Shown: positions 26,494 through 32,889 of the stretch, one piece after another | How the letters are laid out: each line of letters begins with the position of its first letter | How positions within the stretch are numbered: the first letter of the stretch is position 1 | Position numbers and translations under genes: made by a program | Notes under the pieces: model-generated | The model's input: only the letters and a program-made list of their open reading frames with translations | The model's database searches: none | What the model was told of the DNA's origin: nothing | Assembly: GCA_035529855.1 (NCBI GenBank) | Contig: DATKVX010000068.1 | Location: forward strand, 1 to 33,260 | Length of the DNA stretch: 33,260 nucleotides | Direction: 5' to 3' | Origin: a bacterium | GTDB lineage: Bacteria > RBG-13-66-14 > B26-G2 > WVWN01

Positions 26494-27636
26494 ATGCTCG
26501 AGTTCACGCCGGAATACGAACATTTCGCCACCATAAAGGTGATGGGCATAGGCGGCGGTGGCGGAAACGCCGTTAACCGGATGATCGACGCCAAGATCCG
26601 GGGCGTGGAGTTTATCGTCGCCAATACCGACGCCCAGGTACTGCGCCAAACGAAAGCCCTTCAAAAGATCCAGATCGGTTCCCGGCTTACCAACGGCCTG
26701 GGGGCCGGCGGAAAACCGGACGTAGGCCGCCTCGCCGCCGAAGAGGACCGCGACGCCCTGGTCCGAGCCCTCGACGGTTCCGACATGGTCTTCATAACGG
26801 CCGGGATGGGCGGCGGTACGGGTACCGGCGCGGGCCCGCTAATCGCGGAGATCGCGGGCGAGATCGGCGCGCTGACGGTAGCGGTCGTGACCAGGCCTTT
26901 CCATTTCGAGGGGCCGCGTCGTCTCAAGATAGCCGAAACCGGCCTGGCGGAGTTGGCGGACCGGGTGGATACGCTAATCGTCGTCCCCAACGAGAAACTC
27001 CTGAAGATCGTGGCACGCGAGACTACTATTACGGAGTCCTTCCGGTTGGCCGACGACGTCCTGGTGCAGGCCGTGCGCGGGATATCGGACCTCATTACGG
27101 TCCCGGGCCTTATAAACGTCGACTTCGCGGACGTCCGCGCCGTAATGTCGGAAGCCGGCGGGAGCGCCATAATGGGCACCGGCGTCGGCGTAGGCGAGGA
27201 CCGCGCCGTGGCGGCGGCGCAGAACGTAATATCCAGCCCCTTGCTCGACGGCATGAACATCAAAGGGGCGCGCGGGATTCTCATCAACGTAACCGGCGGC
27301 ATCGACATGTCGCTCCACGAGATCAACGAGGCGGTGAGCATCGTCAACGAAGTCGCCGACGACGACGCGAACATCATCGTCGGCGCGGTGGTGGAAGAGG
27401 GCTTGGAGGAATTCCGCGTAACGGTCATAGCGACGGGTTTCGAGGGGCCGCCAGTGCAAGAAGTCGGCGTCTTCGGCGATGCCCAAGTCCCGGCGTCTAT
27501 GGTCCACGCCGCGCCGCTTCCGCCCGTACCCCCCGACGGCGTAGAAATGGATTTCGACGACGCCCTCTTAAATTCCGAATTCGACATCCCGGCCTTCATC
27601 CGACAACGCTCGCGCAACGACGATATGAAAAACTAG
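26494..27636 (+). CDS. ftsZ: Tubulin-like division protein FtsZ
   Basis: The product has 380 residues. It has VMGIGGGGGNAVNRM, FIVANTDAQVL, the tubulin signature GGGTGTG at 106-112, VVPNEKLL, FRLADDVLVQAVRGI and the T7 loop VDFADVRAVM. The C-terminal linker is short and the conserved tail EFDIPAFIRQRSRN (about 362-375) matches the FtsA/ZipA-binding peptide D-I-P-x-F-x-R. It forms the GTP-dependent Z-ring. A strong CGGAGGT stands eight to nine bases before ATG 26494, stronger than that of most genes in the cluster, which suits the high FtsZ level needed. It is the last gene; a strong terminator follows. Confidence 0.98.
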   Translation: MLEFTPEYEHFATIKVMGIGGGGGNAVNRMIDAKIRGVEFIVANTDAQVLRQTKALQKIQIGSRLTNGLGAGGKPDVGRLAAEEDRDALVRALDGSDMVFITAGMGGGTGTGAGPLIAEIAGEIGALTVAVVTRPFHFEGPRRLKIAETGLAELADRVDTLIVVPNEKLLKIVARETTITESFRLADDVLVQAVRGISDLITVPGLINVDFADVRAVMSEAGGSAIMGTGVGVGEDRAVAAAQNVISSPLLDGMNIKGARGILINVTGGIDMSLHEINEAVSIVNEVADDDANIIVGAVVEEGLEEFRVTVIATGFEGPPVQEVGVFGDAQVPASMVHAAPLPPVPPDGVEMDFDDALLNSEFDIPAFIRQRSRNDDMKN

Positions 27637-27646
27637 CGCAGCGCGC

Positions 27647-27677
27647 AAAAAAGCCCCGGCTCGAGCCGGGGCTTTTT
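27647..27677 (+). terminator. Bidirectional terminator between ftsZ and the convergent operon
   Basis: A perfect palindromic stem GCCCCGGC (27653-27660) / GCCGGGGC (27665-27672) has loop TCGA, flanked by six A on the left and five T on the right. The A-run and T-run make it a terminator on both strands, so it closes the dcw cluster and the minus-strand operon that ends at 27696. Confidence 0.92.
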
Positions 27678-27695: not shown

Positions 27696-28505
27696 CTAGC
27701 GAGTGTGCGCCTTGTTACGCAGGATGGTCTTGTACTCGATTCCCGCGGCGTCGATGGCCTCGCCCCACGAGCCGAAGCGCCTGAAGGCTGCGGAGAAGAG
27801 GCTGGGGTCGTGGCGTTGCATATACCCGCTGGCCAATTTTCCACCGGAGCGATATCTTTTTTGGATTTCGTCGATTATTCGGTCGGGCGTCCACTTCCGG
27901 TTTTTAAAACTCTTTTTGATGAGCTCTTCCGGCAAACCCGCGGCCCGCAGCGCGTTTTGCCAATTCCCGAACCGGCGATACGCCGCGGAGTAAAGGAGTA
28001 AGTTCTCTTTGGTCATGTTGCCGTAGGACAGGCGGTCCGGCGGTAGCTCGCGTATCATATTTATAATTTTTTCCCTGGTCCAGGACGTATACCGGGTGCC
28101 CGCCGCTTTATTTACCTCGTCGTAGTCGTAGCCGGCGGCCTCCAACGCCTTGCGCCACGAACCGAATTCCCGGCGCGCCGCCGAATGGAGGGCGACGTTA
28201 TTTTTGTAGACGTACCAAAGTTTGTCGAACGGGACCTTGTTGACCTCTTCCAGGACCCGCGCGCGGTTCCATTTCGTAATTTTCTTCACCGCCTCACTCC
28301 GGCTTTCTTTTTTGATCGAATCGTAGTCGATGCCGCCAGCTTTTACGGCGTCGCCCCAGCTTCTGTAGTACCGCAACGCGGCGCTGTAGAGGGCGGAGTG
28401 TTCGCGGGAGACGTTTTTGACCGTAAGCCGCACGCCTTTGTCTGCAAGTTGTTTTATTTCAGCGGCTATCTTTTCGCGGTTCCACCGGCTTTTCTTGGGG
28501 GACAT
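27696..28505 (-). CDS. Four-repeat protein resembling homing-endonuclease-associated repeats
   Basis: The product has 269 residues built of four tandem units of about 55 residues beginning at W8, W79, W142 and W205. Each unit opens W-[NT]-[RP]-x-[KR]-[IV], has a middle with [LY]-x-S-A-A-[LYF]-R-[RY], and closes F-G-[SN]-W-x-x-A-[LIV]-x-A-A-G (unit 1: YRSWGDAVKAGG). This is the pattern of the HNH_repeat / homing endonuclease associated repeat, a small helical DNA-binding-like module, but there is no HNH, GIY-YIG or LAGLIDADG nuclease. It is Lys-rich, unlike its Arg/Ala-rich neighbours. It is the last gene of the infC operon, 40 bases after the kinase gene. GAGGAGG lies some 12 bases before ATG. 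DNA binding is inference; the function is unknown. Confidence 0.8.
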   Translation of the reverse strand: MSPKKSRWNREKIAAEIKQLADKGVRLTVKNVSREHSALYSAALRYYRSWGDAVKAGGIDYDSIKKESRSEAVKKITKWNRARVLEEVNKVPFDKLWYVYKNNVALHSAARREFGSWRKALEAAGYDYDEVNKAAGTRYTSWTREKIINMIRELPPDRLSYGNMTKENLLLYSAAYRRFGNWQNALRAAGLPEELIKKSFKNRKWTPDRIIDEIQKRYRSGGKLASGYMQRHDPSLFSAAFRRFGSWGEAIDAAGIEYKTILRNKAHTR

Positions 28506-28545
28506 AAGCTATCGAGATCCTCCTCGCGTTGTAACGTCGGTTGTT

Positions 28546-29271
28546 TTAAGGTAGTTTTTTAGGGATCGTTAATTTAAATTCGGCGCCGGTTGACGCTTCG
28601 CCCAACTCGAGTCGGCCGCCCAGAGATTCGGCGATGGCGCGCGCCGTAGGTAAGCCCAGGCCGGAACCTTCCGCTTTGGTCGAATAAAACGGCTCGAAGG
28701 CCTGGGCGGGTTCGGCTAAGCCGGGGCCGTCGTCACGCACGGTAACGACGATGGCTTCGCCGGAATCTTCGGCGGTTAGCTCGACGCGGTCGGCGCCCGC
28801 TTCGAAAGAATTTAGAATAACGTTTAATAGCGCTTGTTTCAAAAGGTTCGCATCCGTCTTGACGACGATGTCGGCGATAGGCTTGAATTCTAATACTACG
28901 CCGGTGGTGGCCGCTACCGGCGCGATGAACGTTTCCAGCTCGGCCAGCGCCCGGGCGAGTTCGACCTCTTGCGCTTTGGGTATTTTGGGGCGGGCGAAGC
29001 GGAGGAAAGCGGTTAAGAGCTCGTCGAGCCGCCGGATCTCCTTTATGGCGGCGGCTAGTTTATCGGCGCCCGGGCCGTCGCCGATTTCCCGCGAGAGTAA
29101 GCCGAGGTTGACCGATAACGCGTTGAGCGGGTTGCGGATTTCGTGGGCGAGCGAGTTTACCAACGTAAAGTAATAGTCGTGTTGGACGTCAGCGGCGTCG
29201 TCGCCGCTACCGGACGCCGCGGTTTCGGGGTCGTTGTTCAGGACGAGTCCGTCTTGTGCCGTTCGACGCAC
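28546..29271 (-). CDS. Soluble orphan sensor histidine kinase
   Basis: The product has 241 residues and no membrane helix or recognisable sensor domain; residues 1-32 are a low-complexity Ala/Gly/Asp segment. The dimerisation/phosphoacceptor helix has H43 in NSLAHEIRNPLNALSVN. The ATPase has N154 (NVILNSFEAG), the G1 box DDGPGLAE (about 180) and the G2 box GSGLGLP (202-208). This is a full HisKA-HATPase kinase of the NtrB-like (PAS-less) type. No response regulator is next to it. It starts GTG at 29271, 21 bases after the pdxA stop, so it is in the same transcript. The trigger and partner are unknown. Confidence 0.88.
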   Translation of the reverse strand: MRRTAQDGLVLNNDPETAASGSGDDAADVQHDYYFTLVNSLAHEIRNPLNALSVNLGLLSREIGDGPGADKLAAAIKEIRRLDELLTAFLRFARPKIPKAQEVELARALAELETFIAPVAATTGVVLEFKPIADIVVKTDANLLKQALLNVILNSFEAGADRVELTAEDSGEAIVVTVRDDGPGLAEPAQAFEPFYSTKAEGSGLGLPTARAIAESLGGRLELGEASTGAEFKLTIPKKLP

Positions 29272-29292: not shown

Positions 29293-30327
29293 TTAGAGCG
29301 AGGTACGTTTTTTCGGTAGTTGCGGGCGTTCGGCGCGTACGAGCTTAGCGGCTAAATTTACGGCGTTCCTCAGGCTATCGATTTTGGCGATGCCTCGCCC
29401 CGCGATATCCAAACCGACGCCGTGGCCCACCGACGTCCTGACGAAGGGCAGCCCCAGCGTGACGTTTACGGTCTTGTAAGGTAATAATATTTTAAGCGGT
29501 ACCAGGCCCTGGTCGTGGTACATGGCGACTACGCCGTCGTACTTGTTGCCGACGTGCTTATGGAACGCCGCCTCGGCGCTTAGCGGCCCGTCCAGGTCGA
29601 TGCCCCGGACGCGGCAGGCTTCGACCGCGGGTTCGATTTCGTGGAGCTCTTCGGTGCCGAGGAGGCCGTTTTCGCCGGCGTGAGGGTTTAAGCCCGTGAC
29701 GGCGATGCGCGGCTTTTTTACGCCCACCTTACGGAGGAATTCGTCGAATAAGAAAACGGTTCGAATCACGCGCGCCAGCTTTATTTTGGAGTGGACCTTT
29801 CGTAGAGGGTAATGTGACGTTACGAGGGCGACCCTTAGCGAATCGCCGAGGAAGCACATGGCGTATTTCGAAGTGTTCGTCCGATTGGCGAAGTATTCCG
29901 TGTGGCCGGTGAAGTAGTAACCGGCGTCGTTGATCGCCTTTTTCGATATGGGTGCGGTCACGACGGCGTCGACCTGGTGGAGCATTACAAGGTCGGTCGC
30001 TTTTTCGACGAAGGCCATCGCCGCGCGCCCGGTTTTGGCGGTCGGCCTTCCGGGCTCGACGTCTTTCAGGTTCACGGTTTTTAGCGACGCGAAGTTAGGT
30101 ACGTCCGGCGCGAATTTCTCGCGGCTGGGCCTCGACGTCGCGTTGAGTTTACGGATATCGAATTTAAATTTCGCCGCCGCGTCGCGCAGCAGGCGCTGGT
30201 CCCCTACGACCACTAGCGTGAAGTCGCTTTTCTTGAGGCCGGCTAGATACTTCGCGACTATTTCGGGACCTACGCCAGCGGGTTCCCCCATAGTCAAAGC
30301 GATTACCGGCCGTTCGTTAGGTGGCAT
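29293..30327 (-). CDS. pdxA: 4-hydroxythreonine-4-phosphate dehydrogenase PdxA
   Basis: The product has 344 residues from ATG 30327; an upstream in-frame GTG at 30351 adds eight residues but fits the family less well. Signatures are VIALTMGEPAGVGPEIVAKY, VTAPISKKAIN, the metal-binding histidines in GHTEYFA, GLNPHAGENG and MYHDQGLVPLK, and TLGLPFVRTSVGHGVG. It oxidises 4-phosphohydroxy-L-threonine in the DXP-dependent route to pyridoxal phosphate. It lies 48 bases after rplT on the same strand, an unusual position within a ribosomal operon. No separate promoter is evident. Confidence 0.95.
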   Translation of the reverse strand: MPPNERPVIALTMGEPAGVGPEIVAKYLAGLKKSDFTLVVVGDQRLLRDAAAKFKFDIRKLNATSRPSREKFAPDVPNFASLKTVNLKDVEPGRPTAKTGRAAMAFVEKATDLVMLHQVDAVVTAPISKKAINDAGYYFTGHTEYFANRTNTSKYAMCFLGDSLRVALVTSHYPLRKVHSKIKLARVIRTVFLFDEFLRKVGVKKPRIAVTGLNPHAGENGLLGTEELHEIEPAVEACRVRGIDLDGPLSAEAAFHKHVGNKYDGVVAMYHDQGLVPLKILLPYKTVNVTLGLPFVRTSVGHGVGLDIAGRGIAKIDSLRNAVNLAAKLVRAERPQLPKKRTSL

Positions 30328-30374
30328 GGGCTTATCTTTCGGCGCGAGCACGAGGCGAAGACTCGCCGCCGCCT

Positions 30375-30737
30375 TTAAGATTCGCGTAGCGCGTTATGCG
30401 CGACTTCGACCAGCGAGCGGAAGGCATCGGGCGACCGGACGGCCGTGTCGGCCAACATTTTCCTGTTAACGTCGACGCCGGCCTTCTTGAGGCCGTGCAT
30501 AAAAGTGTTGTAAGGAAGGTTGAAAGGCCGCACAGCGGCATTGATACGGGTTATCCATAAACGTCTCAAGATGCGACGTCGCCGCCGCCGGTCGGCGTAC
30601 GCGTGCTGCCGGGCTTTGAAAGCCGCGTTGCGCGCTACGCGGTAGAGGTTTTTACGCGCGCCGCGGAAGCCTTTGGCCCGTAGTAGTAACTTTTTGCGCC
30701 GACGACGCCGATGGGGCGCGTTGGTTGCTCTAACCAT
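30375..30737 (-). CDS. rplT: Ribosomal protein L20
   Basis: The product has 120 residues. It has the very basic N-terminal tail (HRRRRRKKLLLRAKGFRGAR) and then RNLYRVARNAAFKARQHAYADRR-type sequence in the L20 pattern, with RLWITRINAAVRPFNLPYNTFMHGL in the globular half. It is a 23S rRNA-binding assembly protein. AGAAGGT is found before ATG. It follows rpmI by 21 bases in the order infC-rpmI-rplT typical of bacteria, where L20 or IF3 levels control the operon. Its N-terminus (MVRATNAPH) differs from the usual PRVKRG. Confidence 0.96.
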   Translation of the reverse strand: MVRATNAPHRRRRRKKLLLRAKGFRGARKNLYRVARNAAFKARQHAYADRRRRRRILRRLWITRINAAVRPFNLPYNTFMHGLKKAGVDVNRKMLADTAVRSPDAFRSLVEVAHNALRES

Positions 30738-30758: not shown

Positions 30759-30968
30759 TTAACTTTTGCGCCGCGCGTAGGGGAGTAACTTCTTAACTCC
30801 TTTGCGGTCAACGCGGGCGACGGTGACTTTCCGGCGGAACCGCCGTCGCCGCCGCGGCGTTTTACCGGTCATAAGGTGGCCGCCGCACGAACGGTACCGT
30901 ACAAATTTCCCGCGAGCGGTGCGCTGGAAGCGTTTGGCGGCGCCCCGGTTGGTTTTCATTTTAGGCAT
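30759..30968 (-). CDS. rpmI: Ribosomal protein L35
   Basis: The product has 69 residues: MPKMKTNRGAAKRFQRT, then GHLMTGKTPRRRR and a basic end, the L35 layout. It is a large-subunit component. AGAGG stands shortly before ATG 30968. It lies between infC and rplT, 28 bases after infC. Confidence 0.96.
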   Translation of the reverse strand: MPKMKTNRGAAKRFQRTARGKFVRYRSCGGHLMTGKTPRRRRRFRRKVTVARVDRKGVKKLLPYARRKS

Positions 30969-30996: not shown

Positions 30997-31533
30997 TTAA
31001 TCGCTACGGGGGGGCGGTATTTTTTTGGCGGGCGCGAGCAGCGTCATCATGTGCCTACCGTCGAGCGTAGGCGGGTTTTCGACCACGGCGTAGCCGTCCA
31101 GCGCGGATATGATACGGGTCAATAATTCGCGGCCGCGCTCGGCGTGTGATACTTCTCGGCCCCTGAAAACAACCGTCACTTTAACCCGGTTTTTTTGCTC
31201 GAGGAATTTTTTAATGTGGCTTAACTTGAAATTAATATCGTGAGTTTCTATTTTAGAACTGATTTTTATTTCTTTGACGAGGCCGCCGGTTTGCCCTTTA
31301 CGGGCGTCGCGTTGCCGCTTTCGCTGCTCATAAAGGTATTTACCGAAATCCATTATCCGGCAAACGGGAGGTTTGGCGTGCGCCGCCACTTCGACTAAGT
31401 CGAGGTCTTTCTCTTCGGCTTGGGCCAACGCTTCGCGGGTGGGGATTACGCCGACCTGCCTTCCCTCATCATCTATAAGGCGAACCTCCGGGACTCGTAT
31501 CCTCCGGTTCACCCGGGCCCGCTTTTCTACGAT
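30997..31533 (-). CDS. infC: Translation initiation factor IF-3, probable AUC start
   Basis: The product has 178 residues if it starts at ATC 31533. It has an N-terminal domain with RVNRRIRVPEVRLIDDEGRQ and DLVEVA, a linker with GKYLYEQRKRQ, and a C-terminal domain with EIKISSKIETHDINFKL, VKVTVVFRGRE and LDGRHMMTLLAP. IF-3 keeps the 30S subunit free and checks the start codon. The first ordinary in-frame start is GTG 31512, but a perfect AGGAGG (31548-31543) is 30 bases from that GTG and nine bases from the in-frame ATC 31533. The known family habit is a rare AUU start that IF-3 itself rejects, so AUC fits autoregulation. A TAA just upstream of CTC-GAT-ATC bounds the frame. It has its own promoter. 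Confidence 0.92.
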   Translation of the reverse strand: MVEKRARVNRRIRVPEVRLIDDEGRQVGVIPTREALAQAEEKDLDLVEVAAHAKPPVCRIMDFGKYLYEQRKRQRDARKGQTGGLVKEIKISSKIETHDINFKLSHIKKFLEQKNRVKVTVVFRGREVSHAERGRELLTRIISALDGYAVVENPPTLDGRHMMTLLAPAKKIPPPRSD

Positions 31534-31548
31534 ATCGAGTTACCTCCT
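31531..31548 (-). promoter_or_regulatory. infC ribosome binding site and rare ATC start
   Basis: On the minus strand, AGGAGG (31548-31543), nine bases, then ATC (31533-31531) in frame with IF-3. The next possible start, GTG, is seven codons further on and too far from this strong site. This element would let IF-3 repress its own translation. Confidence 0.7.
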
Positions 31549-31581: not shown

Positions 31582-31610
31582 CTTATACCATACTTTCGCC
31601 CATTTGTAAA
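31582..31610 (-). promoter_or_regulatory. Promoter of the infC operon
   Basis: On the minus strand, -35 TTTACA (31610-31605), 17 bp, -10 TATAAG (31587-31582). The predicted start is near 31576, about 43 bases before the ATC. Just upstream is an A/T-rich block with an inverted repeat TTTTAG-CTGA-CTAAAA (31616-31631) that may be an UP element or operator. Confidence 0.65.
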
Positions 31611-31631
31611 GTTAATTTTAGCTGACTAAAA

Positions 31632-32175
31632 TAAACATTTTCCCTCGGCACTCGCGCGGGAAACCGCCCGTAATACGTCCGCGGCGTCGCGGGTGAGAAA
31701 CGGCACCTCCCGTACTCGTTTGCCCGCGCCCCGGAGGTTTTACCGTGCGGTTAGACCGGTTGTTAGCACCGAACGGGTATACGTCGTGAAGCGGGAGGTC
31801 CCGGCCCAACGCGTGGCCGCCTATCCCGCGGGACATACGCCGGCCGGGGCGACGCGAACGTACGTTTAGGTTCCCGGCCTTTCGTTCGCAACTTCGCGCC
31901 GTTCTTGCGGTTATGTATTAGATATGGTAGATTAACGGCGATGGTACGGCGTTTCTTATTCCGGAAGATAGGACGTACGTACCGGCGCGCTGTGAGGCTG
32001 CGACGTTGCGTCGCCGCGAGCGCCGTCGTGGATGCGTTACCGCATAATACAAAGTCGGTTGCCGCTGGACGGTTTTCCGTTCGTTACCCGTCGTACGGCT
32101 ACCCCCGGCGTAACGGCAGGTCCCGGCGTCGGAACTTCCACGCGTCCGCGGGTCGGGTTGGGGGTATAGCGAAGT
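31632..32175. other. Gene-free interval between infC promoter and the AMMECR1 gene
   Basis: About 540 bases hold no reading frame with a recognisable product. I looked for RNase P, tmRNA, SRP, 6S and tRNA signatures on both strands and found none. A weak + strand promoter-like pair, TTGCGG (31905-31910) and TAGATT (31928-31933) with 17 bp between them, could start the transcript of the AMMECR1 gene, giving a leader of some 235 bases. A small Arg-rich frame from ATG 31941 to 32189 is open but has no family resemblance. Confidence 0.4.
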
Positions 32176-32889
32176 ATGTTGAACTCTGAAAAAGATTATT
32201 TCGGCCGAATAGCTATTTGGCTTTGCCTCGCCGCGTTGTTTATGGTTGGGGCGGCCTGCAAACGAAAGGAGCCGGTGGAAGTGAGCCCGCCGGAGAGCGC
32301 TGAGGTCCCGCGCGAAGAGGGAACGTCGGCAACGACGCCGGCCGAGAAAGAACTTTTGAGAATCGCCCGCGAGACGCTGCGTACCGCGGTGGAGGAGGGG
32401 CGGACGTACGAACCGCCGCGACCCGACTCGGCCGAGCTGCTCGAGGAACGCGGCGTCTTCGTGACGTTGAAGAAACGCGGCATGCTGCGCGGTTGCATCG
32501 GCTACGTCCTGCCGACGGTGCCGCTCTACCTCGCGGTCCGGGACATGGCCATAAACTCGGCGCTGCGCGACCCGCGTTTCCCGCCCGTAACCGCGGCTGA
32601 GCTCCCGGGACTATATATCGAGATATCGATTATGACGTTCCTCCAACCCGTCGAAGACCCGAAAGAGATCGTCGTGGGCGAGGACGGCCTGGTCATCGAG
32701 GCGGGGGGACGGAGCGGCCTGTTGTTGCCGCAGGTGGCGCCGGAGCAGGGGTGGAACCGCGAACGGTTCCTGGAGGGCGTGTGCATGAAGGCCGGCCTGC
32801 CGCCCGACGCGTACACGTGGGAGGATGCCAAGCTGTCGAAATTCCAGGCCCATATCTTCGGCGGCCCGTACCTCGAGCCGGCGGCGTAA
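32176..32889 (+). CDS. AMMECR1-domain protein with membrane/lipoprotein leader
   Basis: The product has 237 residues. Residues 11-27 are a hydrophobic leader ending GAAC28, a possible though imperfect lipidation site, followed by a Pro/Glu/Ser/Thr linker (29-55). The rest is an AMMECR1 (AmmeMemoRadiSam system protein A) domain: GVFVTLKKRGMLRGCIGYV with LRGCIG at 104-109, VRDMAINSALRDPRFPPVTAAEL, IEISIMTFLQPVEDP, GRSGLLLPQVAPEQGW and RFLEGVCMKAGL. AMMECR1 proteins are otherwise small cytoplasmic proteins often next to Memo and radical-SAM partners, whose joint function is unknown. No such partner is seen downstream in this window. The ATG lacks a strong Shine-Dalgarno. Confidence 0.87.
   Translation: MLNSEKDYFGRIAIWLCLAALFMVGAACKRKEPVEVSPPESAEVPREEGTSATTPAEKELLRIARETLRTAVEEGRTYEPPRPDSAELLEERGVFVTLKKRGMLRGCIGYVLPTVPLYLAVRDMAINSALRDPRFPPVTAAELPGLYIEISIMTFLQPVEDPKEIVVGEDGLVIEAGGRSGLLLPQVAPEQGWNRERFLEGVCMKAGLPPDAYTWEDAKLSKFQAHIFGGPYLEPAA

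Follow-up and report, generated by a model that had tools for sequence, protein, structure and literature searches.

The HER-array gene and its operon

The gene described here occupies positions 27696..28505 on the minus strand of the window, by which we mean the whole 33,260-nucleotide stretch of DNA that was analysed. It is an open reading frame of 269 codons with an ATG start, and its product is an array of four homing endonuclease associated repeats (HER), the unit of Pfam family PF18780 (HNH_repeat), with no nuclease attached. The HER gene is the last of an operon that runs from right to left in the order infC-rpmI-rplT-pdxA-histidine kinase-HER, in agreement with its earlier placement by a sequence-only reading of this DNA. 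On the minus strand, infC (IF3) lies at 30997..31512, rpmI (L35) at 30759..30968, rplT (L20) at 30375..30737 and pdxA at 29293..30351, followed at 28546..29271 by a soluble histidine kinase with HisKA and HATPase_c domains, in which no sensor domain was found. A Shine-Dalgarno sequence, AGGAGG, that is kept across the genus precedes the HER gene at 28519..28524 (minus strand). On its other side the gene meets ftsZ (26494..27636, plus strand) tail to tail, and the interval separating these convergent neighbours contains an inverted repeat bearing runs of A and T (27645..27677), a probable two-way terminator.

The kinase lies directly upstream of the HER gene in all five genomes of the order and most resembles AtoS/ZraS. 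The partners of AtoS and ZraS are NtrC-type regulators; an NtrC-length regulator is present in G000, and the partner of the HER-adjacent kinase may be an NtrC-length regulator encoded elsewhere in the genome.

At the head of the operon, a sigma-70 type promoter with an extended -10 element lies at 31583..31611 (minus strand). This conserved element 5' of infC was considered as an operator for the HER protein and rejected, since it is a promoter of which a similar copy precedes a tRNA gene elsewhere. The region of about 540 bases 5' of infC (31640-32180) carries no evident gene, and its aligned part is unconserved among congeners except for the promoter. The true start of infC is probably slightly upstream of the listed GTG, the frame being conserved 5' of this codon to an ATC after an AGGAGG, at about 31530-31535 of the minus strand. 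The corresponding codon is ATA in G004, and the pattern suggests a non-canonical start comparable to the E. coli AUU.

Composition of the protein

Membership of PF18780 is defined by repeated matches above a curated cut-off of 26 bits, and the 269-residue protein matches the profile in four stretches with 91.2 bits (E 5.2e-26). Unit 1 comprises residues 8-78, including a long linker helix (28272..28484), unit 2 residues 79-141 (28083..28271), unit 3 residues 142-204 (27894..28082) and unit 4 residues 205-269 (27699..27893), all on the minus strand, and together they take up the whole length of the protein. The units share the motif F-G-[SN]-W-x-x-A-x-x-A-A-G and are 37–43% identical to one another over 55–61 residues, so that the repetition cannot be due to chance. 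Pfam scans revealed no credible domain besides HNH_repeat and no Response_reg (receiver) match, and Pfam and NCBIfam scans gave no nuclease domain of the HNH, GIY-YIG, LAGLIDADG or PD-(D/E)xK types. The profile search thus bears out the initial description of a nuclease-free array of four units. It is the sole HER protein found in the host genome (2.62 Mb, 97% complete), a metagenome-assembled genome whose phylum is probably Coatesbacteria.

The protein is strongly basic, with a pI of 10.1 and a net charge of about +25 that is positive in each of the four units; it contains 10.4% arginine and, as first noted, is rich in lysine (10.0%). The GC content had also been described as lower than in neighbouring genes, hinting at transfer or a different history. 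The description holds for most neighbours (0.563 for the whole HER gene) but not for infC, which is lower still at 0.533, and the hint finds no support. The GC3 of 0.730 exceeds that of infC (0.60), rplT (0.68), rpmI (0.69) and the kinase (0.69), indicating that the low whole-gene GC reflects the lysine-rich composition and not foreign DNA. Recent horizontal transfer is rejected on the GC3 together with the conserved synteny, and the very low dN/dS reported below also speaks against it.

Conservation and descent

All three congeners have an orthologue (92–94% identity), and two other families are represented by G004, which belongs to the same order (69%), and by G005, which shares the class (55%); none was found in G006, also of this class, nor in seven other genomes of the phylum. 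The ten-gene block murB-ftsQ-ftsA-ftsZ / HER-HK-pdxA-rplT-rpmI-infC (HK, histidine kinase) is intact throughout the genus and in G004, so the neighbouring context is conserved as anticipated. In G005 the gene lies instead between lnt/prfB and aminotransferase/lysS genes (prfB confirmed in a profile search, the rest assigned by eye), with no two-component neighbour.

Against the three congeners the HER gene gives dN/dS values of 0.048, 0.023 and 0.047, as low as those of ftsZ and ftsA (0.05–0.08) and below those of rplT (0.08–0.15), rpmI (0.12–0.27) and infC (0.07–0.20), with pdxA at 0.09–0.16 and synonymous sites near saturation in the farther pairs. The kinase, at 0.20–0.36, is fast-evolving beside a nearly frozen neighbour. 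A comparison of sampled parts of G002 and G004 gave 25 reciprocal-best pairs, of which the HER protein is the second most conserved, with 69.8% identity compared with a median of 45%. Judged by these comparisons, the gene is old, vertically inherited, under strong purifying selection and conserved in its location. The marks of homing-endonuclease mobility, namely sporadic presence and an intron, intein or insertion context, are replaced here by synteny and purifying selection in both genus and order.

Predicted fold of the HER unit

An AlphaFold2 model of the whole chain (pLDDT 82, pTM 0.36) has confident units whose mutual arrangement is undefined, suggesting that the array is organised like beads on a string. 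Modelled singly, unit 4 is predicted with higher confidence (pLDDT 91.6, pTM 0.78) as a module of four helices, at positions 6-18, 25-31, 33-43 and 46-52, in line with the helical modules that had been expected. PDB sequence searches and Foldseek fold searches gave no significant match, and no solved structure or DNA-binding record was found for any HNH_repeat. Weak, non-significant fold matches of the unit included the TetR-family proteins SmcR/HapR and a eukaryotic/archaeal small-subunit ribosomal protein (8fvy_N and 9e71_BQ, for example, with TM about 0.55); in a viral fold library the best matches were unnamed phage proteins (E 0.016).

Conservation is distributed very unevenly over the predicted helices. 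Over six orthologues, 90% of positions are invariant in helix 3, 53% in helix 4, 47% in helix 2, 30% in helix 1 and 11% in the first loop, and the value for helix 2 rises to 70% when G005 is left out. Helix 3, with the pattern L-Y-S-A-A-x-R-x-F, could be conserved in part for structural reasons. Helix 2 is unlike between units (LTVKNV, WYVYKNN, LSYGNMTK and LASGYMQ in units 1 to 4) and yet largely fixed within each of them. Across the class, units at the same position are 48–61% identical, compared with the 37–43% between units, which indicates that the units have remained distinct and in their original positions. Such unit-by-unit constancy of helix 2 is what one would predict for units that each contact a separate stretch of a conserved partner, and from the family and its fusions we infer that this partner is DNA.

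Relatives and their neighbourhoods

PF18780 occurs in 32 of 386 sampled genomes, in 25 of 327 genera. The view that these repeats normally accompany nucleases proves to be overstated. Fusions to HNH domains do exist (L025, L027, L029 and L033; Pfam HNH was run on L027 and the others were read by eye), as do nuclease-like tails (L030 and L032, by eye, Pfam giving only the repeat in L030) and helicase-like proteins (L037 and L044, also by eye), but at least a dozen arrays are nuclease-free and others are fused to DNA-binding domains. A Ros/MucR-like finger, just below the cut-off, accompanies the array in L034 (G163), and a Brevibacillus plasmid protein (L061:4599-5978) begins with an HTH-like part, followed by four HER-like units and then an HTH_3 domain. 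These Ros/MucR-like and XRE-type fusions have the array in common with the window protein, which lacks the additional DNA-binding domain. The window protein matches stand-alone arrays with E values of 1e-21 to 1e-37 and an HNH-fused array with only 3e-3; although all four of its units carry the family motif, its stand-alone subtype is far from the HNH-fused units. It also differs from the nuclease accessories of the family in being a vertically inherited gene of a core locus.

A survey of stand-alone arrays, as proposed at the outset, revealed forms with two, about three and four units, beside core genes or two-component genes. Every one of the seven genomes in the G270 phylum has stand-alone arrays and, directly 5' of one of them, a receiver-only response regulator (L110, L162-L167); the two genes overlap by 4–13 bases in five genomes, and gaps of 14 and 51 bases lie between them in the other two. 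An OB-HD (YhaM-like) protein follows the array in six of the seven. A two-unit array is present in 9 of 45 genomes of the G218 phylum and adjoins the ribosomal-protein/rpoA cluster in six of these nine. Elsewhere the order is HER-DUF1385-prfA-prmC in three species of one genus and HER-polA in two species of another.

Units 1 and 2 of the G270 arrays match units 1 and 2 of the window protein best, and unit 2 of the G218 arrays is 56% identical to its unit 2; by these matches, unit types recur in order across phyla. The G270 and window operons are alike in having unit types 1 and 2 in the same order and an adjacent two-component gene, but that gene encodes a receiver in the former, with about three HER units, and a kinase in the latter, with four. 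For the G270 phylum the two-component link is strong; it is weaker in Coatesbacteria, where the adjoining kinase is soluble, fast-evolving and AtoS/ZraS-like.

Functional interpretation

Conservation at the level of FtsZ, and the proximity of its relatives in a second phylum to signalling genes, give the HER array the look of an undescribed type of chromosomal DNA-binding regulator. We consider it a resident chromosomal DNA-binding protein of four HER modules, most likely a sequence-specific transcription regulator with conserved targets, with a probability of about 0.5. For this reading we count, besides the fourfold profile match, the conservation, the unit model, the positive charge and the unit-specific helix 2, the relatives fused to DNA-binding domains (HTH_3, Ros/MucR-like finger), the kinase-HER pairs in 5/5 genomes of the Coatesbacteria order and the receiver-HER pairs in 7/7 of the G270 phylum; against it we count the negative searches for DNA-binding records, solved structures, PDB matches and a shared motif, the rapid evolution and AtoS/ZraS-like character of the kinase, and the different location of the gene in G005, away from two-component genes. 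The proposal of a regulator made from the sequence alone is strengthened by this analysis but unproven.

In the mechanism that we envisage, each module would be a four-helix bundle with helices 2 and 3 taken as DNA-facing, and the four modules, on flexible linkers, would follow the DNA and together recognise a single long, asymmetric site, to which every module brings its own fixed helix 2. The array would then act as a transcription regulator on conserved targets. Lacking a sensory domain, it would be switched by partner proteins, for which two-component proteins are the best candidates. DNA contact, sequence specificity, target, regulation and any signal input or phosphorelay link are what we infer for the array. 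When words and dyads were counted in 400 kb samples of G002 and of G004, covering about 16% of either genome, no shared motif emerged beyond promoters, terminators and GC-rich words; a scan of this size (800 kb in total) is weak and misses rare or degenerate sites, and its outcome suggests that the targets are few, that their motif is degenerate or that they fall outside the sample.

That null scan would also suit a nucleoid-architectural protein with a role like that of HU or H-NS, in which the array would coat or bend DNA largely irrespective of sequence, as would the basic character, single copy and extreme conservation of the protein. Nonspecific binding, however, would not require the distinct helix 2 of each unit to be kept across the class, and the phylogenetic distribution is sparse, so that we regard this role as unlikely. 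Less probable still is an RNA- or ribosome-associated function, which would account for the position among infC, rplT and rpmI, or elsewhere near prfA, prfB or rpoA. Translation genes are indeed neighbours in several lineages, and the weak ribosomal-protein fold likeness points the same way, but the neighbourhood may simply be where core genes usually reside, and HER units also occur in fusions with DNA nucleases, helicases, HTH and Ros/MucR-like domains. That the array is a functionless relic of a homing endonuclease deprived of its nuclease is hardly credible despite the family name and the HNH fusions, because purifying selection was measured (dN/dS 0.02–0.05); the conserved locus and the closer match to stand-alone than to HNH-fused arrays also speak against it.

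A special form of the regulator reading would make the array the output half of a split two-component system, with a separate receiver protein, phosphorylated by a kinase, docking on the array to control its DNA binding. The receiver genes of the G270 phylum and the adjoining kinase in Coatesbacteria favour such an arrangement. It is nevertheless doubtful, since no receiver adjoins the array in Coatesbacteria, the kinase there is NtrB/AtoS-like and fast-evolving, and no such link exists in G005, the prfA-linked genus or the rpoA-linked phylum. Returning to the regulator as such, we tentatively suggest, as a broader possibility, that stand-alone HER arrays form an unrecognised class of bacterial transcription factors, modular readers of long sites that are themselves fixed in core operons of several phyla and, in some lineages, supply a two-component system with its DNA-binding half, split off from a receiver-only partner.

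Comparison with known repeat proteins

No published function for PF18780 was found in the literature searched, which covers a minority of subscription papers, consistent with its earlier description as undescribed. One paper (PMC8078820) includes the family in a list of repeats that were modelled in the absence of a known structure, and it is absent from the main text of a screen for DNA-binding tandem repeats (PMC11417379). The TALE-like and STAR tandem repeats (PMC11417379) offer an analogy in working principle only, as modular helical arrays in which each unit presumably reads one segment of the site. TALE-like units have 33–35 residues, two helices and a repeat-variable diresidue, whereas HER units have 63–71 residues and four helices, are only four in number and diverge along their whole length instead of at a few code positions; the two kinds of repeat showed no relation in sequence.

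PF18780 has been filed as an accessory of selfish nucleases, but a nuclease-free copy more conserved than the ribosomal proteins of its own operon shows that the HER array is kept to serve the cell itself. Should the array bind specific DNA, one segment per unit, uncultured phyla would have a new family of regulators, and the array would be a candidate scaffold for modular DNA binding. A split response regulator can be put to a concrete test with the receiver-array operon.

Other HER-containing proteins

No relatives were found in annotated phages, and there was no PADLOC match. Plasmid relatives comprise haloarchaeal, Bacillus and Brevibacillus proteins (24–33%). Three viral contigs from IMG/VR (L054, L055 and L056) have a four-unit HER array between ParB/RepB and an AAA ATPase, with a Ser/Gly-rich protein nearby. 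Two in-frame HER units form the C-terminus of a hexapeptide (left-handed beta-helix) protein in G001 alone (L018:5873-6961). Its orthologues in G000, G003 and G004 end before the repeats, so this hexapeptide transferase-HER fusion is lineage-specific and was set aside as evidence; its gene lies between glmR/yvcK-like and phosphoglucomutase-like genes.
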